The notes under the pieces: generated by a model
What the model was told of the DNA's origin: nothing
Database searches by the model: none
The model's input: only the letters and a program-made list of their open reading frames with translations
Program-made: the position numbers and the translations under genes
DNA from: Mytilus galloprovincialis
Taxonomy: Eukaryota; Mollusca; Bivalvia; Mytilida; Mytilidae
DNA: 64,000 nucleotides
Assembly (NCBI RefSeq): GCF_965363235.1
Contig: NC_134842.1
Span: 7,281,112-7,345,111, forward strand
Reading direction: 5' to 3'
Part shown: piece by piece, positions 2,627 to 45,172 of the stretch
How the letters are laid out: each line of letters begins with the position of its first letter
Position numbering within the stretch: position 1 is the stretch's first letter

Positions 2627-3148
2627 TTGCTGGGCACACACAATGTTTATGTGACGCATGTTTTGGCATGCTTAAAAAAAAATTGGAAGTCGGACGTAAA
2701 CACTGTATCACAGCTGGTTAAAATTGTGTACAATTCTGCCAAATGCAATAGGTCAGAAGTTTATAATGAAAATGACTATGACGAAAACAGCTTGAAGTGG
2801 TACAGATGGGATAATTTCTTAACTAAATATTTTAAACCACTCAGAGGTATAGGAAAATTCCATCACTTCAGATTTACCATTGATGAAGTAGAAGTCGTTT
2901 TTGCGAGAGAAACTCTTGAACAACCAGAGAAAATACTGGTACTCCTTAAGGAAAGCTCAAACGTACCGGAGTTGCTCACGACACTTACAGAAGTTTTTCA
3001 GCCAGCAGGATTCACAGAGGAGAGAAGGCGTTATCTGTGCAATGAAGTCCGTCCTTTTGTTCAATTTAATTTCCGTGACAATTTTGTCCTCGTGCTTCAG
3101 AGGAGTAACATTTTACATAAACTGGTTAAAGTTGGATTGAAAACTTGA
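2627..3148 (+). other. 173-residue ORF of unknown function, likely part of a repeat
   Basis: I do not recognise a named family. The ORF follows a tandem array and ends just before a Penelope-like reverse transcriptase fragment, in a different frame. A central segment (KWYRWDNFLTKYFKPLRGI, then KFHHFRFTIDE, about residues 57-85) has the look of a folded domain that recurs in uncharacterised bivalve proteins. That is memory, not a search. No signal peptide or membrane segment is visible. It could be a fragment of a host or transposon gene caught in the repeat, or an exon of an unrecognised gene. Confidence 0.35.
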
Positions 3149-3804
3149 GAATCATGTATTGTTTCATTGTAACATGCTATAATGACGACTTCAGTATGTA
3201 TACTAAAGAAATTTATCCTGTAGAACTTACTTTAAATAAAGCTAATGATAACAATGACCACTGCCCTTTCCTCGATCTTGATATCTATATCATAAACGGG
3301 AAGCTTAATACAAAAATTTATGATAAAAGAGATGATTTTTCATTTCCTATTGTTAATTATCCATTTTTAGATGGTGACGTTCCCTTGTCACCATCTTATG
3401 GTGTTTATATATCTCAACTTGTACGATTCGCTCGTGTATGTAACAATGTATTAGATTTTAGCGAGAGAAATTTATGTATTACTGAAAAATTATTATACCA
3501 GGGTTTTCGATATCACAAACTGGTCAAAACATTTACTAAATTTTATCACCGGTATAAGGAAATAATTCGTAAATATAACTCAACATGCAGACATCTTATA
3601 CGTTCAGGTATTTCACATCCAAAATTTTATGGAAATATTCTTTATAAAGCACAAAAATGTCAGTATTCTCCTCAGAAACTAACAAAACCTTTAAATAGAC
3701 TTATTAAAAGGGGATATAGTTACGATACTGTGGTCAGGTCATTAAAGATTGCATATTTTGGCTTTAACATTGATTCACTGATAGGGTCTTTGCATCGGAA
3801 CTAA
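3145..3804 (+). pseudogene. Penelope-like reverse transcriptase C-terminal fragment
   Basis: A 219-residue ORF reads as the C-terminal part of a reverse transcriptase of the type common in bivalve Penelope-like retroelements. Landmarks are FLDLDIYIINGKLNTKIYDK (about residues 43-62), PFLDGDVPLSPSYGVYISQL (about 73-92) and FRYHKLVKTFTKFYHRY (about 119-135). The catalytic palm with its YxDD box is not present, so this is an incomplete and probably inactive copy. It is followed by about 450 bp of untranslated 3' sequence shared with a second insertion at 53735-54205. Clade assignment rests on recognition of the FLDL-NGKL-T-IYDK pattern. Confidence 0.65.
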
Positions 3805-4879: not shown

Positions 4880-5100
4880 GTTAATTTCTATTTTTAGGAC
4901 TACGGTGATGTTCCTTTGGTACCAGCTTACGGTGATTATATGATCCAAACTGTTCGCTATGTCCGTGTTTGTTGTGACGTTTCTGATTTCAATGAACATA
5001 ATATGTTTATAACTGGTAAAATATTAAGTCAAGGATTTCGTTTCTACAGATTTCTTCTAACCTTTACTAAATTCTTCCATTGATACAAAGATTTGGTTTT
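4880..5100 (+). pseudogene. second, older Penelope-like RT fragment
   Basis: Translation of the plus strand gives a diverged copy of the same segment as at 3145-3804: GDVPLVPAYGDYMIQTVRYV, then VSDFNEHNMFITGKILSQGF. It is decayed and no longer one open frame. It lies in the same orientation as the first fragment and about 700 bp upstream of a hammerhead ribozyme motif. Confidence 0.6.
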
Positions 5101-5537
5101 GAAGTTCTGTTGTTCTTGATTCAAACAAAAGTAGCACATCATAAGTTTACGATTATATTATTTACCGAGCCATGAAATTTATGAGAGCTCCAGGAAAACT
5201 TATAGATCCTTCTAATTAGTTTTTCTGAAAGGTAACCAATTCAACACTATCAATTGTAATCTTTGAAATATTTATTTTATATTAGAAATATTTAATATTT
5301 TATTGCTATCAACATTGATTATTCTATTAGTTAATTTAAATCAATTACTTTTATATAGATACAGTTATAAGAGGCAAATTCATGGCTCTTGAATCTGTCG
5401 ATACCTGTATCGTGACATTGCACAATGTCATCTCTTTTTCTGACTGTTAATGATGTATTTATGCTAAATCCATAAGATGTTGCATGTGTACTTATTAATA
5501 CGTTTATCTTAGATGCATGAGTTTTATTTGTTAGTCG

Positions 5538-5900
5538 TTATTGGCTTTGAACTAGCTGTAAGTAACTGCAAGTACTCTCACAACTATATGTAAAACCTTT
5601 AAAGTGTGGGGTGGATAAGTACCAGTCTTCGACCGCTCTGCGTTTTCTGTCAACAAAACTTTGAATTTTTCGAAAACCTAAGGATTTTATTATCCCAGGA
5701 ATAGATAACCTGAGCCGTATTTGGCACAACTTTTTGGAATTTTGGATCCTCAATGCTCTTCAACTTTGTATTTGTTTGGCTTTATAACTATTTTGATATG
5801 AGCGTCACTGATGAGTCTTATGTAGACGAAACGCGTGTCTTGCGTACTAAATTATAATCCGGGTACCTATTCTTGCTGTTTTTATATTTGTATCCATCTG
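5538..5900 (+). mobile_element. dispersed retroelement segment carrying the hammerhead
   Basis: The sequence around the ribozyme (from the GTAACTGCAAGTACTCTCAC region through CTTTATAACTATTTTGATAT to the AATCCGGGTACCTATTC region) has the look of a bivalve dispersed repeat. Orientation with the upstream Penelope-like fragment suggests both belong to one decayed element, but continuity between 5100 and 5540 is not proved. The 71-residue minus ORF here is a shadow. Confidence 0.45.
5800..5847 (+). ncRNA. hammerhead ribozyme motif (minimal, retroelement type)
   Basis: The conserved hammerhead core is complete. CTGATGA lies at 5808-5814, stem II GTCTTATGTAGAC at 5815-5827 (GTCT pairs AGAC), GAAA at 5828-5831, and a very short stem III ACGCGTGT at 5831-5838. 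The expected cleavage site is GTC, ending at 5839. Stem I is formed by GCGTCA (5802-5807) with TTGCGT (5840-5845), including wobble pairs and one mismatch. The layout matches the short-stem-III hammerheads of schistosome satellite DNA, Penelope-like elements and animal retrozymes. The weak stem III would need a dimer or a helper stem to cleave well, as is usual for that type. Confidence 0.8.
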
Positions 5901-7872: not shown

Positions 7873-10134
7873 TCAATAGTCGTATGAATAAGAATCTGAA
7901 AGAAAGAAAATGGCAACATAAGTAAACGACAATAAAAAAATAACGAAAGGTGTATATCAGTTTTTTTTTCCTTGATATGTACTTTTGAGATAAAGTTAAT
8001 CGAGGAAAATAAAAGTTTAAAATAATTTTCATGTACAATGTAATTGATTAAATAGAATATAACAATGACTACATTTCGAGTTTTAAATGAGAGGCTAAAA
8101 ATATATGTAATGTCCTCTATTTGCTAACACGCATTTGTGGAGATGCCACGTTAGGTGATCAATCAATCAATCATCCAACCCTTCAATCATTTAATCACTC
8201 AATCAATCTTATTAAGATGCAAAGTATTCGAGTAGCACTGACTATTACACGACAACGAACGTTTTCTTTAGTGTGGATTCTTTTGATTTTCGTGGGTTCT
8301 AATTTTCGTGGATTAAGGAAACTTGCATTTTCGTAGATATTTAGTTTCGCGGATTGCCAAAGAATAGAAAATTTTTAGTTCGTTGAACTGTTAGTTCCAT
8401 AGTTCACTCGACCCAGCAAATCCCCGAAAATTGGTACCCAACGAATATTGATGAATTCACAGTACTTTAATTTGCAGAATTTAAGAAATTATGATATTCT
8501 TTTAGATAGAAATAGATGGCGAGTTTTACGTACCAGTGGCTCTTCTGTATCCTGTAATTAAAGAAATATATTTATAAATGGAAGTCGTATAGGTTTGATT
8601 AGTTGAATATTAGACATAAGACAAAAACAAATAAATAAAATTTCACTATAAATCTAGAGAAGAGAATTTTAATTTTTTTTAAATTATGTTTTAAATACAA
8701 AACTAAAATCAATGTCAAAATACTCAAAGACTATCAAAACATTCAACATATAAAGGAGATGTGGTATGATTGTCAATGAGACAACTTCGTCAAAGTTCAA
8801 ATGAAATAAATGTCAGCAAATATAGAACATTCTCACAAAGTAAAGCTACAATAAACAAAGACTTACTTTTGCCACCTCCCATTTTACCGCCCATTCCTCC
8901 GCCCATTCCTCCGCCCATTCCACCACCCATTCCACCGCCCATTCCTCCGCCCATTCCTCCGCCCATTCCTCCTCCCATTCCTCCGCCCATACCTCCCATC
9001 ATTCCTCCGCCCATACCGCCCATCATTCCTCCGCCCATACCTATATGAAAAAAGAGACATATAACAAATATCATAACAAGTCAATAAATAATATTAACAA
9101 TAAAGATGTTTTTTGTTGTTATTATAGTAATATGTGTATTTCTTTTTCTTAAACATGAAATATATCAATGTATAACTTTCGATGTTTGAATTTGAATTCA
9201 AATTACTTTCAAGTACTATATATACACATGTAAAAAATAATTAAAAGTGATGTCAATAGTATTACACAATTTACATTCGAATGTTCACAAATAAAAGTAA
9301 CCCAACCTTATTCTTTATAAATGATAGCATTTTATTCAGTAGAGAAAGACATAAAAGTTCAGCTTAACTTTTGCGGCATTAATAAAATTGAGTTGAAATT
9401 TTGAATGTCACACCAAGAGCGTGCTAGACATATTTGTGAGTTATTTGTGTATTTAGTGTTTGTTTTTATGTTAGCGGTAGTTGTGTATTCCTCACGTTCA
9501 TCAGGCAAAACATTGAATGGAATAAATAGTTAAAAGTAAGAAAACAATATTAGTTCAACTTACCTCCCATCATACCTCCCATCATACCACCTCCCATTTT
9601 TGGCATTGGCATTGGCATTGGCATTGGCATAGATTTTGGCATTGGCATTGGCATTGGCATCGGCATTGGCATCGGCATTGGCATTGGCATTGGCATTGGC
9701 ATCATCATCTTACCCATACCACCCATACCTCCTCCCATACCGCCCATACCTCCTCCCATACCGCCCATACCTCCCATTCCACCTCCCATTCCTCCGCCCA
9801 TACCACCGCCCATCATCTTACCCATACCCATACCACCCATCATACCACCGCCCATACCTCCCATCATACCACCACCCATACCACCTCCCATTCCGCCCAT
9901 CATTCCACCGCCCATCATCTTACCCATACCGCCTCCCATGCCACCACCCATCATACCACCTCCCATACCACCACCCATCATTCCCCCACCCATACCGCCC
10001 ATCATTCCACCGCCCATACCGCCTCCCATTCCTCCTCCCATACCGCCGCCCATACCGCCACCTTTTCCATAACCAGCACCATTAACTGTGACGAAGACAG
10101 CAATAAATGTGACAACGGTCTGAATTGGATTCAT
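7873..10134 (-). CDS. secreted methionine/glycine-rich repeat protein (four coding exons)
   Basis: Coding exons are 9564-10134, 8867-9040, 8534-8551 and 7873-7895. All junctions are GT/AG and all introns are phase 1. The 786 nt give 261 residues. A hydrophobic signal peptide (MNPIQTVVTFIAVFVTVNG, residues 1-19) leads into long MGGG, MMGG and GKMM repeats, then a run of alternating Met-Pro with one KS break, and more MGGG in exon 2. The short tail is basic then Tyr/Asp-rich, ending DSYSYDY. About one third of the mature residues encoded by exon 1 are Met. The make-up suggests an extruded structural or shell/byssus matrix protein, in the spirit of methionine-rich nacre proteins; Met could also act as an oxidant sink. 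The function is inferred, and no close named match is recalled. Exon 3 is an 18-nt microexon. A splice acceptor 10 bp before the ATG implies an upstream 5' UTR exon. Confidence 0.8.
8265..8465 (+). repeat. dispersed palindromic repeat (TTTCGTGGATT family)
   Basis: The segment alternates TTTTCGTGGGTTC, TTTCGTGGATTAAGGAAACT and, inverted at its right half, CCGAAAATTGGTACCCAACG, ending ATGAATTCACAGTA. Related copies lie at about 48350-48560 and 62990-63195. The near-palindromic form suggests a MITE. It sits in intron 3 of the Met/Gly-rich gene. Confidence 0.55.
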
Positions 10135-14956: not shown

Positions 14957-15652
14957 TTAAATTATACTTTCATAAAACGCTTTGGCTCTTTCGATGCATG
15001 ACCCATATTCATAAAGAGGTTTATATCCAAGCATAGTTTTCGCTTTGTCGTAAGTGACATAGAAAGTCGTATTAAGAAAGGCTAAACTACCAAACGAAAA
15101 ATGTACTGTCGGCAAAGTTATTCTCAGGAACCGTAAAATAAATAGTATACAGAAAAACAGAAACATTAAAGACATCGCAATCCAATATGGAACATGCCAT
15201 TTAGAGGTCTTAGTACCAAAATGGTTAAAAAATGGTTTCATTGTTTCAGGATATGAGGCTGGTGGTGTATCGTCGGCGGCAAAGAAAAAATGTCCTCCAA
15301 GCGACGAATTATTAGGTAAAGCTTCTGCTGCTGTGACGAACATCATTGCAGTGTTTCCAACATAACTGAACTGTACTGTAGCATCCATAGGTCCAACCAC
15401 AGGGAATGTTTTACCCTTGAATGGGCGAACGGCAAGAGGTATCTGTACGTTGTCCAATTCCCCAAACATAGGCAAAGGTAGAATTGCAAGAGTTCTCAGA
15501 ACATTTCCTGCCATAAATAATACAGTTAATAAAATATATGTTAAATGTTATATTAATTTATTTGGGAATAACCAAAGTTTTAAATCTGTCAGTCTTATTC
15601 CTTAATAATATCATGATATATTTCATTCTTAAAAACATTAAGTTATCTTTTA

Positions 15653-22223: not shown

Positions 22224-24658
22224 TCAAATTATCTTCGAATAGAAGGTATTTGATCGTCTGACTGCAGTATCATAGTCATAGATGGGTTCGTATTCTAGCA
22301 ATGTCTTGGCTTTGTCGTAAGTAACATAAAAGGTTGTATTTAAAAATGCTATGCTCCCGAATGTGAAATGCAAATTTGGCAAGTTGACTGGTTTAAACAG
22401 ACGAACTATATAAAGTAAACAATAAAATAAAAACATCATAAACATCGTAAACCAGTAGGGTATATACCAGGTTGATGGTCTGGAACCTACTAGATCTAAA
22501 AATGGTTTCATTACACCGGGCAATGTATCTGGTGGAGTGTCGTCTGCAGCAAAGAAAAAATGGCCGCCAAGAGCTGGATTGTTCGGTATTGATTCTGCTG
22601 CTTTCACAAACATCATTGCTGTATTTCCAACATAGCTATATTGTAAAATGGCTGTCATACGACCGACTAATGGATAAGTTGTTCCTTTGAAAGGCCTTAT
22701 TGAAAGTGGAATAGCCATATAGTCCAATTCGCCGTACATTGGTAACGGTAGAATGGCAATTGTTCGAAGCTGTTTTCCTAAAATGATAAGTTAAACTGAT
22801 TGTTTTATTTTGAAAAGAAATTGATTTAATTGCTTTAAATTATGTGTAGTGTTAAAGTCTCCATGTTCCAGACATTTTACCAGAATAAAACTCAAGGTTT
22901 TTAAAAAATAAATCAGATTGCGTGTTTCTGAAGAAAAAAAAACAAACAAACACACACATACTTTCATTACTGTTTTAACTCTCGTTTTTTCTTTTCAGAT
23001 TTATCTCAATATCTAAAACTACATCAATCGTATTTAAGCATATTTTTATGAATTGTACAAGAATCTTCATGTGTGTTTGAAAATACCTTTTCCAAGTCAG
23101 GAAAATTACAGTTATTGTCCATTCGTTTGATGTGTTTTATCATTTTGCCTTTTGGTTAAGATCTTTCCGTTTTGAATTTTCCTCGGAGTTTGTTATTTTT
23201 GTGATTATACTTTTTAGTTTTTTTGTCTGTATCAGTATCAAAGAGAAGATTTCCTAAGTTCAAAAAACTTGTATCTGATCCATGATTTCTAGGCTTTAAA
23301 CAAAAATATACTAAATGTTATGCAACCAATTCTCTCATAATTATAGTATGATGTAAAAAATATAATAACGAATATATACCATTGCTTAGTGTTGTTCCGT
23401 TTGCAGATATGACTATGTCTTGTGCTGTAAGTTTTGAATACGCATATGCATCAAAGTATAATTTTGATGGATGTTTTACTGTCGTTTCCGTTCCTCCACG
23501 TGACTCCTCCGGTCCGGCAAAGATACCACTGGAACCACAGTATATTAGATAAGGAACATTCTCCTCTCTACACGCTTCAATAATAGTCTGTGTACCTTTA
23601 TAAAATATGAGTTGAACAGTAAATTATATTTTATATGAGATACAATGAATGAAATGCTAGTGTTATATACTAAAGAGCATTTTGTTTCTTTCAATTTCTT
23701 TTAGTCAAAATGTATGTTTTTTCGTGTGTTAATTGCTCTGTGTGTTTATGTTAGAATTGATTGTTAATGTCTGTATCATTCTAAATGTTGTTTCATTTTT
23801 TTTTTTTTTCGTGAGGATAATTATGTGTAATGACTTTTTAAAGGCTGAGTTTTGTGAGATTTAAGTAGTTTTCATTTACGTATGAGGTTTTGCGACGGTT
23901 TTTTTTTTAATTGTCGTGTCTTCCGTTACAATAATGCCTGGCTTGTGTTATATCATTATGCCTTATTAAGTGTCGAAGGACAATAATGTCACGCATTCGA
24001 AAGTCAACCCAATAATGAACACGCACAATGCTTAGCAAAATAGTGATTTTACCTAATATATTTACTTCATGTAGAATCTTTCTATTCGGAAATAATGACC
24101 AGTCAATCATAGAGGCTATATGTAGAACAATGTCAACACCACGACAAGCTTGCTGGACAAGTGCCTGGTCGGTTATACTCCCTGTATACGATAGTATGCT
24201 TTGCTTTGCTTCAAATTCTACAAATAAATCCGAAATTCGTATCATTTGCATCCGTTTTCTTTCAAATCAAATAATTTCATAAGGTACTGAATTATAATCA
24301 TGAAATATAATTAAAAAATAAGCATTTTGTGGTTTCCGTTTTAATGTAGAAAACTGATAGTTTCAAACGATTTTTGCAACTGAATTCATATTTCATGAGT
24401 AAAAACATTATCATGAATGCCAGAATCGTCCACGGTCATACTTGCCTGAGGTAATTGCAATCTTAGTTTTTACATAATGTTTTTAACTTAAATTTATACT
24501 GGTTAATTATAAAAACCAATACCTAGCTTTTGTTCATATGGAACCTTGTCTAAAACTCGTATTTCTTTGACGCTATCACCATACAGCTGTAAATGTTTCA
24601 CTACATGTTGTCCGAGAAATCCACTTCCACCCGTTACCAAGACAACATACTTGCTCAT
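22224..24658 (-). CDS. 3-beta-hydroxysteroid dehydrogenase-like protein B
   Basis: Coding exons are 24523-24658, 24053-24217, 23380-23595 and 22224-22777. The 1071 nt give 356 residues, and exons 2 and 3 have the same lengths as in gene A. The start MSKYVVLVTGGSGFLGQHVV carries the Rossmann motif. The catalytic dyad is in DAYAYSKLTAQ, one residue later than in gene A. The serine cluster reads YCGSSG instead of YCSSSS, so the substrate pocket or proton relay may differ. LRTIAILPLPMYGEL and a membrane segment (WFTMFMMFLFYCLLYIVRLF) follow. I chose the internal Met because it aligns with A and C and because an intron acceptor (TTTTCATACAG) lies 15 bp upstream. Likely ER-bound sterol or steroid oxidation; substrate unknown. 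Confidence 0.9.
23085..23220 (+). repeat. CCAAGTCAGGAAAATTACAG-family fragment
   Basis: TTTCCAAGTCAGGAAAATTA, then GTCCATTCGTTTGATGTGTT and TTCCTCGGAGTTTGTTATTT match the copies at 41060-42360. In intron 3 of gene B. Confidence 0.55.
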
Positions 24659-26896: not shown

Positions 26897-29800
26897 ATGG
26901 CTAGTGGTGTTGTCTTGGTAACTGGTGGGAGCGGATGTTTAGGACAACATATTATCAAACATTTACACCTTCTGGGAACTGATGTCAAAGAAATTCGTAT
27001 TTTAGATGTTGTGAAATACGAACAAAAACTAGGTATGGCCTCATAATAATATTTCATAATTCCTTTGACAAATGCATCATGAACATTGAAAGTTACATGT
27101 GATTTATCTTAACTGTTACAATGTTTTTTTTTAACATGTGTAATAAAGTTTAAGAAAGTCGCCATATCAAGAATAAGTAATATTTATTTAAATGTTTTGA
27201 ACTTTGTGAACTTTATTCTCACAAAACTACATGTCATAGTTACAGAGAAAATATATATTTACAATTACATATATGATTTTATAAGCATGCACATGTGTGA
27301 ACAAATAACGTAACTTAACTTGGAGGACTGACTTTCACCAGTATTGTTTTTATAAACTTACATAATTTTTCTAAAATGATAATATTGTCTGAATTAAATA
27401 AACTATCAAATTTGTATGTATTTGGATTTTTACAGCAATATTCAGGTAGAAATTTCTTTCTCTCTAAATGTAAAGATTTACAAGTCATTATATAATGATA
27501 TTCGTCACCGATTTCACTTGAATTGCATAGATGACAAAGTCTGTCGTTTCGTGACAAGCCTCGCCATCTTCCCGTCTCAATTGGTAAACGGTGACTACCG
27601 CATCTAAATTTGCAGTATACAAATAATAAATTATTAGGCAATATGTTGAGATAATTCTCAAATTTCAGATTATTTTTAAAAATTCTATAACATAGACATT
27701 TAGGTAAGGTTTCTATCTGTGACAAACATAATTGTGTGAACTGATCTTTAAGCTTTTGTTCCACACTTTTTGATACCCATTTGTCAGCAAAATGAAGGTT
27801 CCAAATATTAGACATTCCACAATTATTAAAAATATTTTTAATATAAATCAACCATTTACTTTCAAAACCATAGTTATTTAAATTTATAAGTAATAGTTTA
27901 TAAAGAACATGAGCAATTTTATACTCTTTACCGTTTATAATTCTGCCCCAAAAATTTATCATACGAACTTTTGCATAAAGAAATAATGGGAATCTGCCCA
28001 GTTCTGCATAAACTATACAATCTGGGGTTGATTGCTTCAAATGTAAAATGAGTTTACAAAATTTTAGGTGTACTCGCTCTAACAAGTCAAAGTTTTCAAA
28101 CCCCCAAATCTCTGATCCATATAACAAAATAGGTACAACAGCCTTATCAAAGAGATCTAGTTGACATTCAATAGATAAGTTATTAATTCTACTTTTCTTC
28201 AAGATAGAATACATAGCCTTTATTCCTTGATCTCGTAAGTATTTTCTAGTTTGTAAAAAAGAACCACTTTTAGAAAAAAATATTCCTAAATATTTATAAT
28301 TTTTAACAATCTCAATTTCATTATCATTAATAAAAAAATTCAAATTTTGTGGAAGTCTGCCATTTGCAAAAACAAGAATTTTTGTTTTATCAACATTTAC
28401 CTTAAGTTGCCATTTGTTACAATATATGGCAAAATTGTTTAACATATTTTGTAATTCAGTGCTACTATCCGCTAATAAAACAGTGTCATCAGCATATAAC
28501 AGTAAGAAAATCTTAAGATACACATCTAGTTCATTTTCTAGGTCTGCACTTATTGACTGTAAACCTTTTGAATCTAACTCTTCTAAAAATGCTTGTAAAT
28601 CGTTTAGATATACAGAAAACAGAGCAGGCGATAGATTTTCACCTTGCCGTACACCAATTTCGCAAGGGAAGAAGTCAGATTTCTCATTATTGAAAACAAC
28701 ACGGGATTTTATATCATTATACATATTTTGTATAACTCGGAAAAATTTTCCGTTAATATTATTATTCAACAGTTTAAATAAAAGGAGATTTCTTTGAATA
28801 GAATCAAAAGCTCTCTGAAAATCAATGAACGCACAAAATAACTTTTTCTTCTTTAATTTCAATAGCTCGAAAAAGGCATAAATAGCAAAAATATGATCAT
28901 TTGTGTTGTATCCTGGTCTAAAACCTGCTTGGTTTTCTTCTAAAATTAAAAACTCATCTAAATAATCACCAAGTCTACTGCTTAAAATGGAAGTAAATAT
29001 TTTACCTAAACTTGATAGTAATGTTATTGGCCGATAGTTTTTCGGTTCCCTTTTACTACCTTTGTTTTTAAACACTGGAATAACATTTCCTAAAAGCCAT
29101 ATTTCAGGTAAAAAACCTGTATCAAAAATTAAATTGAACATATATACATATATATCTAACATCAATTCAGAAGATGATGAAATATACTCATTTATTATCA
29201 AGTCGTCACCAGGTGACTTATTATTTTTAACACTTTGTATACCTTTGATAACCTCGTCTCTTGTTATTGTTTTGTTCAAAAAATAATTTGATCTATCACC
29301 ATCAAAATTGTTATCTAGTTCAATATTTGCTCTGTTAAGAGTATCTTTATTCATTTCTTTAAAAAAATCATAAAACTGTTTGATATCAATGTCATTATTC
29401 ACTGGACATTTAAACTTATTAAAAAATTTCCAAAAATCACGTGGCTTTTTCATACGTAATTCTTTCATTTTCTTCTTCAAGTCATGATTATAGAGACGAA
29501 TGCTATCATCCATAGTTTTTTTATACATTTTTTCACTATTTCGTAGTCTAACTTTGAAAATATTAGAACCGTAATGTTTATACAATCTTAATGACTTTCT
29601 ATAATCTCTTCTACTATTTTTACAATCGTGATTAAACCATTCTTTATTGTTATATTCTTCTTTTGAATTACTACAATCTTTCGTAACTACACCAAAAGTT
29701 TTTTCTGCTGAATCAAGCAAAATTTTAGTAACATTGGTAACAATTTCATTTACACTGTTTTGATCTACTTTACTTATATCATCATGTATTTCTAAGATAT

Positions 29801-32800
29801 GTGACAATAAATCATTAACCTCATCTCTGTTTATGTTACTTTTAAAATCAGTACTCTTTTCATGTTTCCATTTACCTATGTATTTTTCATTATTTCTGAT
29901 ACATGTATTTTCTTTTAGCATATCTGTTTTTACATTACAATCTAATTTTAAAAAGATTGGTTTATGAATATCCGAATATAAATTGCTAAATTGCATTATT
30001 TCAAAATCAACAATTTTCTGAAATATATTTGCCGAGCCCATTACGTAGTCAACTACGCTTGAGTTACGACTTGTCGGGTTACCAACTTTGTCAGATAAAA
30101 ATCGACCGTTCAATATAAATATGTTGTTATTTTTACAAAAACTGATAAGCTTTCTGCCATATGTATTAACTGTTTGATCTTGAGAATTTCTTTTCCTCGG
30201 TATACCAAGGTCGTCTAAAATGCCTATTTCAGAAAACTCATTAAAATCAATCAATTCATTTACAAATGTATCATCAAAATCATCTATATCATAAAAATCA
30301 GCTAATGTACCAGTACGACTATTAAAATCGCCAAATAAGCAGACATATTGTGAATCTTTATACATATTATGCAGTTCTATTTCTATCTCAGATATAGCAT
30401 CATCTGCTGTATATAAAGTATTAATAGGTGGAATGTAAATAACACCACATATTAGATCTTGTGGTAACTGTACTAATTTCTTACAAATTTTAAACCAAAA
30501 GACAAAAGGACAATTTGAATCAATTGGAGTGATATAATTGTTTAAAGAACTTTTATGTCCAAAAGCTAAACCACCTGATCTATAATTTGAGATTTTTTTT
30601 CTATTTTTACAATAAAAAGTAAAATTTTCTAAAGATATATCATCTAAGTCATCTAATTTGGTCTCTGAGAAACAAACAATATCATGCTCTTGTAATAAAT
30701 TTCTAAATTCTGGATATAAGAGTTTAGACTTTAAACCACATACATTTAGTATCAATAATTGTAATTTATTGTTTTCTTTAGAAGTAAAGTCAAGACAAGT
30801 CAAGTTTATTAATACACTCAGGCACATATTGTGTGCAACAAGAGCAGCATTATGTAGTATACAAAATAATAAATTGCTCAATAAATATTACAAATAAAAA
30901 ATAACGCAAACCTTTTATCACTACGGGTGAAAAAGAAGTTTTCAGTATCTGTGAAATAAGTTTAGGATAGTACTAGCGTAGAAATAATTTTTCAAGATAG
31001 ATTATTGATAGAGTTCATGCACTTCGCACTAATTTGTATAGGCCAGGCTTTAAATTACGTATCAGGTTCGTCAGAATTAATTCTATTCCGCTTCAGCATT
31101 TCCCGCAGATTTGGTATCGGACGATTCCATGAGTTAAAATCACTGGGTCGGGTCGAATTAATTAATGGACATTTATCCGATAATTCATCGGCTTCAAAAA
31201 TTTGGCTGTTTCTGTTCGGTATTTCCTTGCGATCCATGTATTTTGATACTCTGTCATCGTTTGTTTTGTACAATTCTCCTTCTATGAAAAGTTTATCTCT
31301 TATCAAAACAGCTTTCTTTCGGTCTTTCTTTGCCTGCTTTAAAACAGGATATAGGCTTTTCCTCTTCTTTTCAATTTTTACAGGAAATTGTGCGCGGACA
31401 GAAATGTTTGTCCCCTTTAATTTGTGACAGTTCCTCATGACTAACTGTTTATCTTTCAAAGATACAAACTTAATCATTATATATTGTCTTTGCTTTCCGA
31501 AACGATGTACAGAAACGAAATTCATATTTTCAACGATTCCGAGTTTTTTGCGGATAAAATCCCTTACAATGTTCTCTGTATCCCAATTTGGCTCGTGCTT
31601 TAATCCGGATATAATGATATTGTTAGTCATTGATCTCCATTGTAACTCTTCGACATCGCTCTCCATATTTGACAATCGGTCATTGACGCATTTTATATCG
31701 AATGTGTTTTCTTTGTTATCTTTTGCTTCTTCTAGCAATGATATTTTCGACACATTTTCTTTGCAGCGATCTATAATTTTATGCACAACCGTACTCATTT
31801 GTTCTCCTTTTTCTTCGATCATTTTATTTCGGTTCAACACAATTTCGCACTTCTGTTCCACGTGTTCAATTCTTGTTATCATTGCGTCTAATTTCCCCTC
31901 AAATTGCGATATCCTTGAAACTTCCCGCTCAAGCTTTCCACATTTTGTCTGGAGATCTGCCACGACAGCAAGTACAGAGTTTAATATAGAGATAGTTTTG
32001 GTATCAAGTGCTTTGTATTCCGACATTATTATTCAAAATATATATAATAAAGTTATTGTTGTTGCAATTGAACGCCGAGAGAACAATGGAGAACAATCAA
32101 TCTCCACTAACAACCCGACGACGTTAGCAACATTAGCATTAGCTACAAATCTCTTGTAGTAAACGAAATATTCAGAATATTTTTCATTATTGTCGTGAAA
32201 TCTGTAAAGTTGTTGAAAAATTAATTTTACCGTTCGAATAAAATCCTCAAAATCTATGACTCCATTCCATTTGTTAAGTTTATATGCTGGCCTAGATCTT
32301 ACTAGTTAGAGTTTTTGCCGGAGCAAAAAAAGCATGACTGTCCTTGCCAGTACTTCCGCCAATCAGTGAATAGAATTAACACTTTTACTACGGTGAAAAT
32401 CTGTTCCGCTTGAGTAATTTGGTTGACAACAACTGTTCTTTAATCCTCCTTGACCTCCTTAACTTGGGGTTTGCGATTTACGGGGGTCTCGACCAGTGTT
32501 TCTTGTTTGATTATTAAGACCGTGGATGGAAGTTTTCGGGCGTGCCCCTCGTCCAATATATAGTTGTCTTTCATTTGTCTCCATTCTTGCCTCGTCGCTT
32601 CTGTCAGGTGGGATGAATTCAGCCCCGTCAATAAATAAACGATCCTTTTTTAAATGAACCTTCCGTTTTTGACTTTTGGCTTCTTTGAAGTAGGGCCACA
32701 GTATCTTTCTCCTGTCATTAATTTCTTTGGGAAATTGTTCATTCACTCCAAAATGGGTCCCTTTCAACGCCGAAGCAGCGTATCGAACTTGCTCCTGTCT

Positions 32801-35800: not shown

Positions 35801-38330
35801 TATTTGGTGTAAAAATAAGAAGATGTGATAGGATTGTAAATGAAACAACGCTTTACACAAAAGACTAAATGGCATAGAAGTCAATATAACAGTATAGGTC
35901 ACCGTATATATGAAATAAGAAGTTGTGGTGTAATTGTCTATGAGATGAACAAAATCCATATAGCATAGTCAGCTTTAAAATGCCCCGAAATGATAAATGT
36001 AGAACATTTCAAACGATAACATGTACAAACTCAGTATATTTCTCGGTAAGTATTGTATGCAAGTCCAATCAAAGAAGAATCCGAATCTACATGGCTACAG
36101 TTATTCTAGTATAAACATGTAATGCAAATGATAACACACTTGGAATAGGGAATATCTATAACCTTTAATGAGATCTGTTCAACTTTATAAGACATATACA
36201 TGTATTAGCAAACATCTTTAGATATTTTAACCCTGCTTCGTACTCGACTGATTTACTGAATCGTTTTTTTTAACGGCCTAGTTTAAAGGGTAGTAAGAAT
36301 TAAGTCAACTGAAAGCTATGTCACATTTATTGTGGTTATATTCGTTATACAAATTATTCTGATTTCGAGCCGGCTAGCCTTTGCTCCTTTATGTCGTGTG
36401 TTAAGCGGAGAACCGGCAAATACCAACTTTAAAGTCTTTCGTTTGATATGACCGGGTTTCGAACCCATGACCTCCTGCACTTGAAGGGAACACGCGTCCA
36501 TGAAACCATCGAATCGGTTACGTAACTATAAGATATTTAAGCAGCCTGAGGGAAACCGCGAGAAGAGAAAACGAGTACTCCTTATATTAGGCAAAAATTT
36601 ATGTTATAAATACATTATTCTATTTTTGAACTGCTTATATTTTAGTGTGCTTCTCCGGCCCCTATGCCTTTGCTCATATCTTGAATTTGCACCTCCATGC
36701 AGTCAATATATAGTGGAAGTTAGTTACAAAGATTTGAGCTGGTTGATCAAATGCAGACAAAACTACATAGAAACATATCTAAAATGTACTTAATCTGATT
36801 GTAATTTTTACTTTTTATTTGAAGGAACGGAAACTATTATGAAGGCATGTAAGGATAAAAATGTACCATACCTAATCTACTGCAGCTCTCTTAGCATATT
36901 CTATGGTCCACGGGAAATAAAGGCGGGAACTGAGACTTCAGTGCAACCACAGACTAACTTGTACTTTGGAGCATATGCTAAGTCAAAGTCAAAAGCTCAG
37001 AAAATGGTGTTAGGAGCAAATGGAAGTAAACTCAAAAATGGTAAATAATACATGTACATGTAATGTGTAGTATCCAGTCGACAAAGTACTCATTTTAAAC
37101 AAATTAATACCTTACACAGAGTAAAAATATCATTTTGATTACCAATCTTTGGTACAAGATTTTGAAGTGAACGATATTTTTTGTCTTCGTGTTACGATTT
37201 TTATTATAACCTATAAAACAGTTTCCTACATATTTCAAAATGATGTTAAACAATCAAAATAACAACTTTCTGTAAGCGTACTACATTTATTACAAAATAA
37301 CATGGAGGCCAAATTAATGCATTATATATATATATCTGGGAACATAAAATTATGTTAGTCAGCTCAAGATTTGTTTTAATCACTAGCGTTACACAGTTTA
37401 TTGTTAGTTTGTACTAACGAGTACTCCTTATATTAGGCGAAAATTTATGTTATAAATACATTATTCTATTTTTGAACTGCTTATATTTTAGTGTGCTTCT
37501 CCGGCCCCTATGCCTTTGCTCATATCTTGAATTCGCACCTCCATGCAGTCAGTAACCATAGGAATAATTTGGAAGTATTAAAGAAGCTGTAACAGTAAAA
37601 ACCAAGCAACTTATGAAGTTCAATTTTGAATCATTGTATAAAATTTTATAACTTGAAGCACTATAATACAATAATATCTTAGCGTCTGTAAGGTCGGATT
37701 TATAAATACAACAGTATCAATGCTAAAGAAAATATTTAAATTGATTATTAATTGGTAACTCATGATTTTTATATAGGAAAGTCTTTAAGAACATTAGCAA
37801 TCCTGCCACTACCACTATATGGCGAACTTGACTACCACAATATTACACCAAGTGTTCAACCGTTCAAAGATAAAACGTACACTCTGATTGGACCAATGAC
37901 AGCACGTGTACACTATAGTTATGCTGGTAACTGTGCTTATGTGTTTATCAAAGCAATAGAAGCTATTCAACGGAACCCAGAAGTTGGAGGTGAATATTTC
38001 TTTGCAGCAGACGATACACCACCGAACATATTCCCGGAAACCATCAGACCATTCTTTGAACAGTTTAATGTCAAAACGTCATCCTGGCATGTACCATACT
38101 GGTTAATAATGTCATTTGTATTTATTGTTTATTGTGTATTTTATGTTATACGATTCTTTACACCTGTAGATTTAGTAAATTTAGGATTCACAACCGGAAG
38201 TATATCGTTTCTGAACACCACGTGTTACGTCACGTACGATAAAGCCAACACGTTACTGGGATACAAACCATTATACGACTACAAAACTTCTATTGAAATG
38301 TCTAAACAGTTTTACGCAAAAGTTGTTTGA
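26897..38330 (+). CDS. 3-beta-hydroxysteroid dehydrogenase-like protein C, with a LINE in intron 1
   Basis: Coding exons are 26897-27032, 35549-35713, 36825-37040 and 37777-38330; all junctions are phase 1 and the 1071 nt give 356 residues. The Rossmann motif is TGGSGCLG, with Cys where A and B have Phe. The catalytic dyad lies in GAYAKSKSKAQ. LRTLAILPLPLYGEL follows, then a membrane segment (YWLIMSFVFIVYCVFYVIRF) and FLNTTCYVTYDKANTLLGY. Intron 1 is 8.5 kb, against 0.3-0.75 kb in A and B, because of an antisense LINE. Exon 3 is flanked by near-identical 136-bp direct repeats. A 5' UTR intron is likely (26549-26877). The frame is open throughout, so the gene looks functional despite the insertions. 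Confidence 0.9.
27315..30881 (-). CDS. LINE ORF2: AP endonuclease plus reverse transcriptase, 1188 residues
   Basis: This enzyme nicks target DNA and copies the element RNA in place. The endonuclease domain shows SETK (72-75), GDFNSRTG (184-191), VVDY (276-279) and SDIHKP (303-308). The reverse transcriptase shows NYRPITLLSSLGKIF (about 615-629), QAGFRPGYNTNDHIF (651-665), FIDFQRAFD (685-693), GVRQGENLSPALFS (743-756) and catalytic YADD (796-799). The C-terminal part has a CHLC...HYIMTC cysteine/histidine cluster near residue 1115. All catalytic landmarks are present. The true start may be downstream of the first Met, since conserved sequence begins near residue 41. It is antisense to the host dehydrogenase gene. 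Confidence 0.93.
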   Translation of the reverse strand: MSNLLFCILHNAALVAHNMCLSVLINLTCLDFTSKENNKLQLLILNVCGLKSKLLYPEFRNLLQEHDIVCFSETKLDDLDDISLENFTFYCKNRKKISNYRSGGLAFGHKSSLNNYITPIDSNCPFVFWFKICKKLVQLPQDLICGVIYIPPINTLYTADDAISEIEIELHNMYKDSQYVCLFGDFNSRTGTLADFYDIDDFDDTFVNELIDFNEFSEIGILDDLGIPRKRNSQDQTVNTYGRKLISFCKNNNIFILNGRFLSDKVGNPTSRNSSVVDYVMGSANIFQKIVDFEIMQFSNLYSDIHKPIFLKLDCNVKTDMLKENTCIRNNEKYIGKWKHEKSTDFKSNINRDEVNDLLSHILEIHDDISKVDQNSVNEIVTNVTKILLDSAEKTFGVVTKDCSNSKEEYNNKEWFNHDCKNSRRDYRKSLRLYKHYGSNIFKVRLRNSEKMYKKTMDDSIRLYNHDLKKKMKELRMKKPRDFWKFFNKFKCPVNNDIDIKQFYDFFKEMNKDTLNRANIELDNNFDGDRSNYFLNKTITRDEVIKGIQSVKNNKSPGDDLIINEYISSSSELMLDIYVYMFNLIFDTGFLPEIWLLGNVIPVFKNKGSKREPKNYRPITLLSSLGKIFTSILSSRLGDYLDEFLILEENQAGFRPGYNTNDHIFAIYAFFELLKLKKKKLFCAFIDFQRAFDSIQRNLLLFKLLNNNINGKFFRVIQNMYNDIKSRVVFNNEKSDFFPCEIGVRQGENLSPALFSVYLNDLQAFLEELDSKGLQSISADLENELDVYLKIFLLLYADDTVLLADSSTELQNMLNNFAIYCNKWQLKVNVDKTKILVFANGRLPQNLNFFINDNEIEIVKNYKYLGIFFSKSGSFLQTRKYLRDQGIKAMYSILKKSRINNLSIECQLDLFDKAVVPILLYGSEIWGFENFDLLERVHLKFCKLILHLKQSTPDCIVYAELGRFPLFLYAKVRMINFWGRIINGKEYKIAHVLYKLLLINLNNYGFESKWLIYIKNIFNNCGMSNIWNLHFADKWVSKSVEQKLKDQFTQLCLSQIETLPKCLCYRIFKNNLKFENYLNILPNNLLFVYCKFRCGSHRLPIETGRWRGLSRNDRLCHLCNSSEIGDEYHYIMTCKSLHLERKKFLPEYCCKNPNTYKFDSLFNSDNIIILEKLCKFIKTILVKVSPPS
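31055..32026 (-). CDS. LINE ORF1: coiled-coil RNA-binding protein, 323 residues
   Basis: The N-terminal about 130 residues are heptad-like and charged (QTKCGKLEREVSRI, EGKLDAMITRIEHVEQK), predicting a coiled coil. They are followed by an RRM-like segment (NNIIISGLKHEPNW, then FVSVHRFGKQRQYIMIKFVS) and a basic C-terminal domain (AQFPVKIEKKRKSLYPVLKQ). This is the layout of L1-type ORF1 nucleic-acid chaperones, which coat the element RNA. It lies 173 bp upstream of ORF2 on the same strand. Confidence 0.85.
   Translation of the reverse strand: MSEYKALDTKTISILNSVLAVVADLQTKCGKLEREVSRISQFEGKLDAMITRIEHVEQKCEIVLNRNKMIEEKGEQMSTVVHKIIDRCKENVSKISLLEEAKDNKENTFDIKCVNDRLSNMESDVEELQWRSMTNNIIISGLKHEPNWDTENIVRDFIRKKLGIVENMNFVSVHRFGKQRQYIMIKFVSLKDKQLVMRNCHKLKGTNISVRAQFPVKIEKKRKSLYPVLKQAKKDRKKAVLIRDKLFIEGELYKTNDDRVSKYMDRKEIPNRNSQIFEADELSDKCPLINSTRPSDFNSWNRPIPNLREMLKRNRINSDEPDT
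32027..32439 (-). other. spacer between the two ORF1-like regions, possible internal 5' UTR
   Basis: About 400 bp with no ORF of note. If the downstream ORF1/ORF2 pair is a separate LINE, this is its 5' UTR; if the whole is one element, it is an inter-ORF spacer. Confidence 0.4.
32440..33738 (-). pseudogene. second ORF1-like coding region of a LINE, interrupted
   Basis: It opens with a basic N-terminus (MNSKKNGKSGTKRKKSKGQ at 33738), continues in another frame with a coiled-coil part (33555-32764; NEKLCKFESTMNNLVKNVDK, DKVSKRMDDVEKS) and an RRM-like part (ENLVFTGLPLTNETED, FHRAHRFGKESS). It ends in a third frame with NEQFPKEINDRRKILWPYFK and KKDRLFIDGAEF (32821-32459). At least two frame changes break it. 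The C-terminal part is clearly related to ORF1 at 31055-32026 but well diverged. It has no ORF2 of its own in this window. Confidence 0.75.
33761..35250. other. rest of gene C intron 1, nothing recognised
   Basis: AT-rich DNA between the LINE and a small repeat fragment near exon 2. Short ORFs have no domain or splice support. Confidence 0.35.
35255..35335 (-). repeat. reversed fragment of the GTCAAAGAGGGACGAAAGAT family
   Basis: AGCCATGGCCTCGTCAGTTT and GGTTATCTCTTTGGTATATA are the complement of the start of the repeat at 39215-39500. This explains part of the 100-residue plus ORF at 35036-35338. Confidence 0.5.
35815..36020 (-). repeat. dispersed SINE-like repeat, minus, in intron 2 of gene C
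   Basis: AGAAGATGTGATAGGATTGT, TATAGGTCACCGTATATATG, then GCATAGTCAGCTTTAAAATG and CATTTCAAACGATAAC match the complement of 21780-21980, with an internal duplication. Confidence 0.6.
36340..36530 (-). repeat. tRNA-derived SINE, minus orientation
   Basis: Read on the minus strand, GGTTTCATGGACGCG precedes GGAGGTCATGGGTTCGAAAC, with a perfect Pol III B-box core (GGGTTCGAAACCC). A nontransfer tail runs to GCTAGCCGGCTCGAAATC. It does not fold as a complete tRNA. In intron 2 of gene C. Confidence 0.5.
36570..36705 (+). repeat. 136-bp direct repeat, left copy (before exon 3 of gene C)
   Basis: Pairs with 37416-37551 at constant offset 846 bp; only two substitutions were seen over 136 bp. It begins AACGAGTACTCC and ends CATGCAGTCA. 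Confidence 0.95.
37416..37551 (+). repeat. 136-bp direct repeat, right copy (after exon 3 of gene C)
   Basis: Partner of 36570-36705 in intron 3. Together the copies bracket exon 3 (36825-37040). Confidence 0.95.
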
Positions 38331-43116: not shown

Positions 43117-45172
43117 CCAGATGCTCCGCAGGGCGCAGCTTTATACGACCGCAGAGGTTGAACCCTGAACAGTTGGGGCAAGTATGGACACAACATTCAA
43201 GCTGGATTCAGCTCTAAATTTGGATTGTGATTAAATAGTTGACACAGCATAGGTTTCTGACACATAATGAATGTGGTCTAATGAACTTAAAATTTTTTTT
43301 GCCTTTGAGCAATTCACTATGCTGTTGAATATTAATCCTCTCAAAAAAATGTTTGAAGAAATTTTTTTTTTATTTATGATATTTGAAATGAAAAAAAATT
43401 GAACCCCCCCCCCCCCAATTTTTTTTTCACATCCCCCTTTCCCTTATTCCAAAACTGATCTCAATTCAAATTTCTAATGGAGTTTGCAACAATAACTACT
43501 CATCTAAATACATATTAAAATGTAAAAAAAGTGCTTGTTATCACTGAATGGTAAAGATTGTTTTAATTTATCAGTTGGTAGTAAAAGTGAATATACATTG
43601 TATATTGTATAAAGCAATGATTTAAGTTGATTCAACTACTATTCTGGACAAAGAAAGATAACTCCAATTGAAAATATGAAAATTTCTTGCTATTGCACAA
43701 TATTGTGCAATTAGATATTTCTTGTTATTGTGCAATACTGTGCAATTGAAAATATTTGCTATTGCACAATACTGTGCAATTGAAGATTTCTTGCTATTGC
43801 GCAATACTGTGCAATTGAAAATTTCTTGCTATTGCACAATACTGTGCAATTGAAGATTTCTTGCTATTGCTGAATACTGTCCAATTGAAAATCTCTTGCT
43901 ATTGCACAATACTTAATATAATAATTTTGGATCCTGATTTGGACCAACTTGAAAACTAGGCCCATAATCAAAAATCTTAGAACATGTTTAGATTCAGCAT
44001 ATCAAAGAAGCCCAAGAATTAAATTTTTGTTAAAATCAAACTTAGTTTAATTTTGGACCCTTTGGACTTTAATGTAGACCAATTTGAAAACAGGACCAAA
44101 AATTAAGAATCTACATACACAGTTAGATTTGGCATATCAAAGAACCCCAATTATTCAATTTTTGATGAAATCAAACAAAGTTTAATTTTGGACCCCGATT
44201 TGGACCAACTTGAAAACTGGGCCAATAATCAAAAATCTAAGTACATTTTTAGATTCAGCATATCAAAGAACCCCAAGGATTCAATTTTTGTTAAATCAAA
44301 CTAAGTTTAATTTTGGATCCCCTTGGACCTTAATGTAGACCAATTTTAAAACGGGACCAAAAATTAAGAATCTACATACACAGTTAGATTTGGCATATCA
44401 AGGAACCCCAATTATTCAATTTTTGATGAAATCAAACAAAGTTTAATTTTGGACCCTTTGGGCCCCTTATTCCTAAACTGTTGGGACCAAAACTTCCAAA
44501 ATCAATCCCAACCTTCCTTTTATGGTCATAAACCTTGTGTTTAAATTTCATAGATTTCTATTTACTTATACTAAAGTTATGGTGCGAAAACCAAGAAAAA
44601 TGCTTATTTCGGCCCCTTTTTGGCCCCTAATTACTAAACTGTTCGAACCTCAACTCCCAAAATCAATCCCAACCTTCCCTTTGTGGTCATGAACCTTGTG
44701 TTTAATTTCATTGATTTCTATTTACTTATACTAAAGTTATTGTGCGAAAACCAAGAATAATGCTTATTTTGGCCCTTTTTTGGCCTGTAATTCCTAAACT
44801 GTTGAAACCAAAACTCCCAAAATCAATCCCAACCTTCCTTTTGTGGTCATAAACCTTGTGTCAAAATTTCATAGTTTTCTATTTACTTAAACTAGTTATA
44901 GTGCGAAAACCAAGAAAATTCTTATTTGGGCCATTTTTGGCCCCTAATTCCTAAAATGTTGGGACCAAAACTTCCAAAATCAATCCCAACCTTCCTTTTG
45001 TGGTAATAAACCTTGTGTTAAAATTTCATAAATTTTTATTCACATTTACTAAAGTTAGAGTGCGAAAACTAAAAGTATTCGGACGACGACGATGACGACG
45101 ACGCAGACGACGACGCCAACATCATACCAATATACGACCAAAAATTTTTCAATTTTTGCGGTCGTATAAAAA
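43117..45172. mobile_element. 2-kb pearl-like element, copy 1
   Basis: The left end is CCAGATGCTCCGCAGGGCGC then TTTATACGACCGCAG (43140). The right end closes TGCGGTCGTATAAA (45157-45170), an inverted match of 14 bp. Inside lie a 35-bp palindromic minisatellite (43676-43920), GGACCAACTTGAAAACTGGG-type units (about 43925-44460), about four 160-170 bp units with AACTGTTGGGACCAAAACT and AACCTTCCTTTTGTGGTCAT (44460-45070), a GAC-rich run and a terminal hairpin (TATACGAC with GTCGTATA). Tandem core plus GC-rich microsatellite plus hairpin end is the layout of bivalve pearl elements, linked to Helentrons. Noncoding. A poly-C run lies at about 43405-43418. Confidence 0.8.
43676..43920. repeat. 35-bp palindromic minisatellite inside the 2-kb element
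   Basis: About seven units with starts near 43691, 43726, 43761, 43796, 43831, 43866 and 43901. Each centres on ATTGCACAATACTGTGCAAT, an 8-bp inverted repeat. Copy 2 (60790-60965) has fewer units. Confidence 0.85.

Follow-up and report, generated by a model that had tools for sequence, protein, structure and literature searches.

Introduction

Which kind of element left a hammerhead ribozyme motif in this stretch of Mytilus galloprovincialis DNA (64,000 nucleotides, hereafter the window), and how was that element copied into the genome? A preliminary description, made from the sequence letters, assigned the motif to a decayed Penelope-like element with a reverse transcriptase (RT) remnant just upstream, and proposed that the ribozyme had processed the RNA of that element. 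The mussel is also the host of a non-LTR retrozyme (Cervera & de la Pena 2020, PMC7229834), described there as a set of ~5000 type I hammerheads that fall into two similar families, within repeats of ~350-390 bp whose transcripts self-cleave and occur as circular RNA. A cloned mussel repeat is reported in the same paper to cleave itself at ~0.1 per minute, a figure that belongs to that clone and not to the window copy. Here we compare the hammerhead of the window with its relatives across the genome, most of which stop just past the ribozyme, a pattern that hints at how the element is copied into DNA.

Results

A minimal type I hammerhead in the window

Read directly, the letters at the locus give CTGANGA, stem II, GAAA, stem III and NUH in this order, with stems I to III pairing (Table 1). 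The complete core that had been claimed is thus borne out, by this reading as well as by the family model and the shuffles given below, and the proposed cleavage position, 5839/5840, agrees with it. Both marks of decay that had been noticed are present: a G-U pair in stem III, where ACGCGCGT has become ACGCGTGT, and a mismatch in stem I, where TGG has become TTG and gives C.U. The "two-turn stem III" of the same description was wrong, since this stem would have 2 bp around a 4-nt loop within one molecule, and as many as 8 bp if it forms between two. As a ribozyme, the window copy is probably weak or inactive.

Table 1. Coordinates of the hammerhead, its repeat and neighbouring features in the window
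Feature	Position	Strand	Remark
Type I hammerhead ribozyme motif	5802-5845	+	RF00163, 24.6 bits; own-family model, 78 bits at 5799-5853
Stem I, 5' strand, GCGTCA	5802-5807	+	Read from letters
CTGATGA core	5808-5814	+	Read from letters
Stem II, GTCT / AGAC, loop TATGT	5815-5818 / 5824-5827	+	Read from letters
GAAA	5828-5831	+	Read from letters
Stem III near-palindrome, ACGCGTGT	5831-5838	+	ACGCGCGT in most copies read
C before the cut	5839	+	Predicted cut between 5839 and 5840
Stem I, 3' strand, TTGCGT	5840-5845	+	Read from letters
Partial retrozyme unit, 5'-truncated	5643-5868	+	226 of ~354 bp (body, hammerhead, first part of tail); blastn
Tail after the cut	5840-5868	+	Homology ends at +29, before the common end at +39 to +46
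RT-like scrap from a separate dispersed repeat, outside the element	4898-5110	+	One in-frame stop
1188-aa ORF	27315-30881	-	Endonuclease- and RT-like motifs by eye
ORF1-like frame of long non-LTR retrotransposon	31055-32026	-	

In a local search of 401 bases, the Rfam model RF00163 aligned to the motif over all 45 of its positions, two pairs being non-standard, at 24.6 bits (E 8.9e-4), and no Rfam family reached its gathering score when the entire window was searched. The preliminary description had counted a score under the threshold as grounds for rejection, and taken literally the motif fails, with 24.6 bits against a gathering score of 34. However, the copies in L003, L019, L029, L031 (four matches) and L048, which lack the two stem changes of the window copy, also stay below it, 8/8 matches scoring exactly 33.0. 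The gathering score therefore cannot decide on this hammerhead, and the retrozyme family as a whole lies just short of it (33.0 vs 34). A model of the family itself, R1, built from 20 genomic copies with the window copy excluded, finds the motif at 78 bits (E 7.4e-21, at 5799-5853), the next-best match in the window being 14.3 bits (E 0.13).

A chance resemblance would be favoured by how little the shortest form of the motif demands: the bare pattern CTGANGA-N4-20-GAAA occurs three times in the window with 2.5 occurrences expected, and is by itself no proof. The 25-nt core, in contrast, has one match in the window (up to three mismatches) and a mean of 0.00 in 100 shuffles, and the core, the stems and 226 bp of context are all common to a large family, which rules chance out and leaves it a negligible probability. 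As far as sequence comparison reaches, the hammerhead of the window is confirmed as a real, minimal type I motif of retroelement origin, slightly decayed.

A dispersed repeat with a ~354-bp unit

The motif lies in a fragment that blastn aligns with one genomic unit at 92.5% over 226 nt (E 1.5e-91). Six other copies are 93-95% identical to the window copy (5-7% different), and positions 5640-5880 match at least 40 other places in the genome at 93-95%, counted among the matches listed (2103 candidates). The exact 25-nt core is found 5650 times on the forward and 6058 times on the reverse strand of the 1.385-Gb genome, and a reversed-pattern control 0 times. The 354-bp unit disperses both singly and in tandem: several loci have units spaced 353-356 bp apart, the window copy consists of one partial unit, and the 25 elements picked by core alone comprise 20 with one core and five with more than one within ~1.5 kb. 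Two similar hammerhead families are present in the genome, a main one and a second to which L001 and L021 belong. Positions 5643-5868 are free of ORFs of at least 150 aa, and from this and the size of the unit (~354 bp) we take the repeat to have neither LTRs nor coding sequence. A search of a plasmid collection gave no match.

Metazoan non-LTR retrozymes are characterized by a type I hammerhead in a repeat unit of ~170-400 bp that is frequently tandem, by many dispersed copies (here 11,708 exact cores) and, where target duplications are present, by a length of these above 4 bp. The repeat resembles the published mussel retrozyme (PMC7229834) in its type I hammerhead, unit size, thousands of copies, two families, tandem and dispersed arrangement, low G+C and in that no ORF is noted. 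It differs in abundance, with 11,708 exact cores here against ~5000 copies there, numbers that come from different assemblies and perhaps from different species. Unit size, ribozyme type, abundance and the two families fit what the text of that paper describes, so the kind of element is already known, and the window copy is most likely an ordinary decayed member of the known mussel family, a likeness drawn from features as described. Plant LTR retrozymes (PMC7229834, PMC11722881) are likewise described as non-autonomous, hammerhead-bounded and present as circular RNA, but differ in their LTR structure, type III ribozyme, length of 600-800 nt and 4-bp target duplications. Elsewhere in the window, a weak and old trace of retrozyme body is seen at 46018-46082 on the minus strand (74% over 65 nt).

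The hammerhead and the upstream RT segment

A reading with some appeal makes the hammerhead part of a Penelope-like element, with the RT remnant just upstream belonging to the same element and the ribozyme processing its RNA. The RT segment lies on the same strand ~0.7 kb away, and Penelope-like elements are reported to carry minimal type I hammerheads (PMC7229834, PMC11167929). An older hammerhead on the strand of the RT piece is also present in one other RT locus, L075.

The link is not borne out by the remaining copies of the RT segment. A close hammerhead is found in 0/29 of them (L063-L091, ~1.5 kb read on each side), and the older hammerheads that the family model detects in 4/29 loci are, apart from that in L075, on the strand opposite to the RT match (L082, L084, L085). 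Rfam returned no hammerhead in the 20 of the 29 loci that were searched, a weak control that missed the diverged ones in L075 and L082. The retrozyme fragment starts at 5643, more than 500 nt past the RT scrap, its ~354-bp unit is too small to hold an RT, and the constant association with an RT and GIY-YIG ORF that marks a Penelope ribozyme is not seen. The dispersed repeat to which 4898-5110 is similar shows RT-like motifs by eye (GIPMGTNCAPLIADLFLY, YRYLDD). Protein searches did not confirm the scrap as Penelope-like: two fragments matched 0 Pfam families and a longer relative had only two weak, non-RT matches; this relative matched 0 NCBIfam families and gave four weak PDB matches, none an RT, and a relative of the scrap compared with one GIY-YIG protein gave a best E of 7.5 over regions that may not correspond. 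With no close hammerhead at the other copies and the older ones mostly on the opposite strand, we reject an assignment to the upstream RT element, which we consider hardly credible; judged by their copies, hammerhead repeat and RT segment are independent repeats. Further upstream, at 3145-3804 (+), lies an open frame of 219 aa that belongs to the same RT-like kind as the scrap.

Most sampled insertions share their 3' end and scatter at their 5' end

We chose 51 separate elements by hand from loci L001-L061, avoiding overlaps; L004 was dropped because it has no recognisable core, leaving 50, of which 48 could be evaluated at each end (at the 3' end L007 and L010 extend beyond the locus, as do two others at the 5' end). 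Loci L001-L031 had been found by likeness to the window copy, one of them by RF00008, and L032-L061 by the core alone. Because the elements were found through the ribozyme core, short inserts that lack it are missed.

The insertions end at +39 to +46 nt past the ribozyme cut in 40/48 evaluable elements, 20/23 among L001-L031 and 20/25 among L032-L061. The other eight end at 18 (L039), 20 (L040), 26 (L001), 29 (the window copy), 36 (L051), 49 (L008), 333 (L042) and 380 (L037). Judged by eye, some of these outliers are alignment effects: the changed tail of L037 continues as far as about +41 in the unit that follows, and that of L001, a member of the second family, reaches the homologous site, as in L021. 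An internal deletion of ~9 nt just before TATT would, again by eye, explain the end of the window tail at +29. The second, diverged family (L001, L021) also shows, by eye, the constant end beside a stem-loop. The four bases that follow the conserved AACTA are mostly T (35/43), T (34), T (27) and A (22); the unit itself continues TTTA, so these bases may be element sequence, target homology or both.

The 5' ends, by contrast with the constant 3' end, are evenly spread over the unit (KS vs uniform, p 0.78), and 2/48 lie within 5 nt of the cut. Short duplications at the ends average 3.60 compared with 2.93 in shuffles, a mean reached by 1/300 of them; duplications of 6 or 7 bp occur in 4/43 elements against 1.66 in shuffles (reached by 22/300), and the window copy has none longer than 3. 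A looser test of duplications was not significant (reached by 43/500 shuffles). The duplication test used 43 of the 51 elements, leaving out L001, L004, L007, L010, L021, L028, L039 and L042. Constant 3' ends with scattered 5' ends look as if reverse transcription had begun at a fixed internal site and broken off at random toward the 5' end, on RNA that was uncut or re-closed at the hammerhead. We did not find such a constant end described for animal retrozymes in the literature searched (main texts, with few subscription papers), and the text of PMC7229834 makes no mention of it for the mussel retrozyme.

No excess of insertion starts seen at the ribozyme cut

Exact tails are preceded by GTC at 5327 places and by a base other than C at 283, of which 176 keep GT, leaving 107 candidates for an end at the cut. 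Among the first 20 places listed, which we read, five start exactly at the cut (L098, L107, L108, L110, L114), L098 continuing into a full unit and the other four being short pieces. The remaining 15 are hammerhead copies with an altered or shortened GTC, five of them derived from one insertion by copying at the DNA level. The control position, +9, has 239 places, and 3/12 of those read have an exact start (L119, L120, L126), while L116 is an inverted junction. The cut-site and +9 patterns differ in length and base make-up, which makes the comparison rough; in these small samples, no excess of 5' ends at the hammerhead cut was seen (5/20 vs 3/12). Priming at +42 on a cut monomer would give a piece of ~42 nt, and such pieces exist. 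The copies sampled above, on the other hand, span the cut site because they were found through the core, and their templates must have been uncut or re-closed there.

Two arrangements were met among these loci. In L116, two retrozyme pieces in opposite orientation are joined within a few bases (1-82), and L097, L100, L101, L105 and L115 have a common 3' flank, marking one insertion copied at the DNA level, probably inside another repeat.

Paired changes in the ribozyme and in the stem-loop domain

The preliminary description had called for a comparison of copies for a kept core and pairing, and the hammerhead passes it: in 22 copies, 95.5% of cells pair, and 4/14 pairs have changed on both sides, a number reached by 1/500 shuffles; the six slid versions, with 0 to 2 such pairs, all fall short of it. 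All four of these pairs come from a single diverged copy, in L082 (3090-3144, -), which has matching changes in stems I, II and III and the stem III palindrome AUGCGCAU for ACGCGCGU. The pattern supports selection on the ribozyme in active elements, where it perhaps acts as a dimer through stem III.

The fixed 3' end adjoins ACACC and a stem-loop domain (+43 to about +125) with a folding energy of -37.5 kcal/mol (106 nt, one unit). RNAalifold, given 46 sequences of the domain, has 1/18 pairs changed on both sides and a covariation term of 0.03. In the named stem-loop structure, 5/30 pairs are changed on both sides (46 sequences), which 7/500 shuffles reach, and the score is 0.071 compared with 0.017-0.043 in slid versions, the -3 slide also having five such pairs. 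Covariation in this domain is weak to suggestive.

The discoverers of retrozymes name LINEs or Penelope-like elements as the helper, with Penelope-like elements a strong candidate. The genome contains at least 147 GIY-YIG matches. No sense hammerhead was found at the four GIY-YIG ORF-start regions read, nor was retrozyme sequence common to these Penelope-like ORF starts; the exception is a decayed antisense hammerhead with its tail upstream of the GIY-YIG ORF in L093, which looks like an ordinary insertion. Past the LINE ORF of the window, 1.1 kb of sequence has only short motif matches and no retrozyme-like tail, so that neither the GIY-YIG ORF starts nor the end of the window LINE identified a helper element.

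Discussion

The fragment in the window is probably an animal non-LTR retrozyme of the mussel kind, now decayed and truncated at its 5' end, that was reverse-transcribed from a fixed internal site. From the insertion ends, which are observed, we infer priming, template and enzyme. The reverse transcriptase of another element would be primed on nicked DNA and would start at a fixed internal site, 39-46 nt past the hammerhead cut; copying would then proceed upstream through an uncut or re-closed hammerhead, sometimes for several turns, and stop at random points, giving the scattered 5' ends. Target-primed reverse transcription of circular or uncut multimeric RNA would account for the fixed start, the random stop and the several turns. 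The window copy would be one such insertion, later worn by point changes (the stem I mismatch and the stem III G-U). Against this account stand the eight 3' ends that lie elsewhere, the looser duplication test and the origin of all four paired hammerhead changes in L082; 5/20 loci also start at the cut, as a cut linear RNA would give, with 3/12 at the control position.

The closest parallel is PAc of Anolis (Frangieh et al. 2024, PMC11167929), a Penelope-like element whose purified enzyme is described as starting internally, downstream of its own hammerhead, within an AC-rich stem-loop 111-118 nt into the ORF; its hammerhead cuts at 26. This enzyme prefers ATT and uses ribozyme-dead RNA, and genomic copies of PAc end at the start sites. 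The mussel copies likewise end at a fixed site downstream of the hammerhead, in or next to an AC-rich stem-loop, with an A/T-rich target and the use of RNA uncut by the ribozyme, the start being deduced here from the ends. Unlike the mussel repeat, PAc encodes its own enzyme, and its start is 85-92 nt past the cut (111-118 minus 26), compared with 39-46 here. By analogy, we tentatively suggest that retrozymes live on Penelope-like enzymes by way of an internal start site of their own: the enzyme may bind the stem-loop between +43 and about +125, prime at a T/A-rich nick and copy uncut or circular RNA through the hammerhead, so that the ribozyme would make the template and not the ends of the DNA. 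The analogy with Penelope-like elements is good, and a LINE enzyme is possible.

With a LINE-type helper, synthesis would begin at the 3' terminus of an RNA that is itself made to stop at +40 to +43, and the constant end would mark that terminus rather than an internal start; this too we entertain as a tentative possibility. LINEs and SINEs equally leave constant 3' ends and truncated 5' ends as their signature, the window itself has a long open non-LTR element (27315-32026), and duplications at the insertion ends exist, though short. However, the 3' ends inspected by eye carry neither poly-A nor a tail of short repeats, and the 1.1 kb past the LINE ORF of the window is without a retrozyme-like tail. 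Unbroken tandem units moreover pass the +40 to +43 point, so the RNA must at times continue beyond it. Spread as DNA only, by satellite-type duplication and DNA-level copying with the ribozyme as a passenger, would account for the tandem arrays and for the common 3' flank of L097, L100, L101, L105 and L115, but is very unlikely given constant 3' ends at many sites with unrelated flanks, random 5' ends and short duplications at these sites, and the circular RNA reported from mussel (PMC7229834).

The 3'-end pattern thus bears on which enzyme moves animal retrozymes. With a constant 3' end, copy counts and an enzyme assay can address both the template, for which uncut or re-closed RNA is favoured over cut monomers, and the helper, a Penelope-like or a LINE enzyme.

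Other features of the window

The long open non-LTR retrotransposon on the minus strand, at 27315-32026, comprises the two frames given in Table 1. Three similar ORFs, at 14957-15514 (-), 22224-22739 (-) and 37752-38330 (+), resemble by eye what we take to be exons of the hydroxysteroid-dehydrogenase type. A 194-aa ORF at 9550-10134 (-) has a signal-like start followed by Gly/Met-rich repeats and lies over 12-bp and related tandem arrays. Similar composite arrays at 43677-45116 and 60757-62187 have ~35-, ~135- and ~160-bp repeats in the same order, with GAC-rich short repeats at the end. A 73-bp array occupies 1381-2402 (14 copies, 94% matches), and a 39-bp array at 58261-59047, with ~20 copies and 98% matches, is open in at least two frames on the minus strand.
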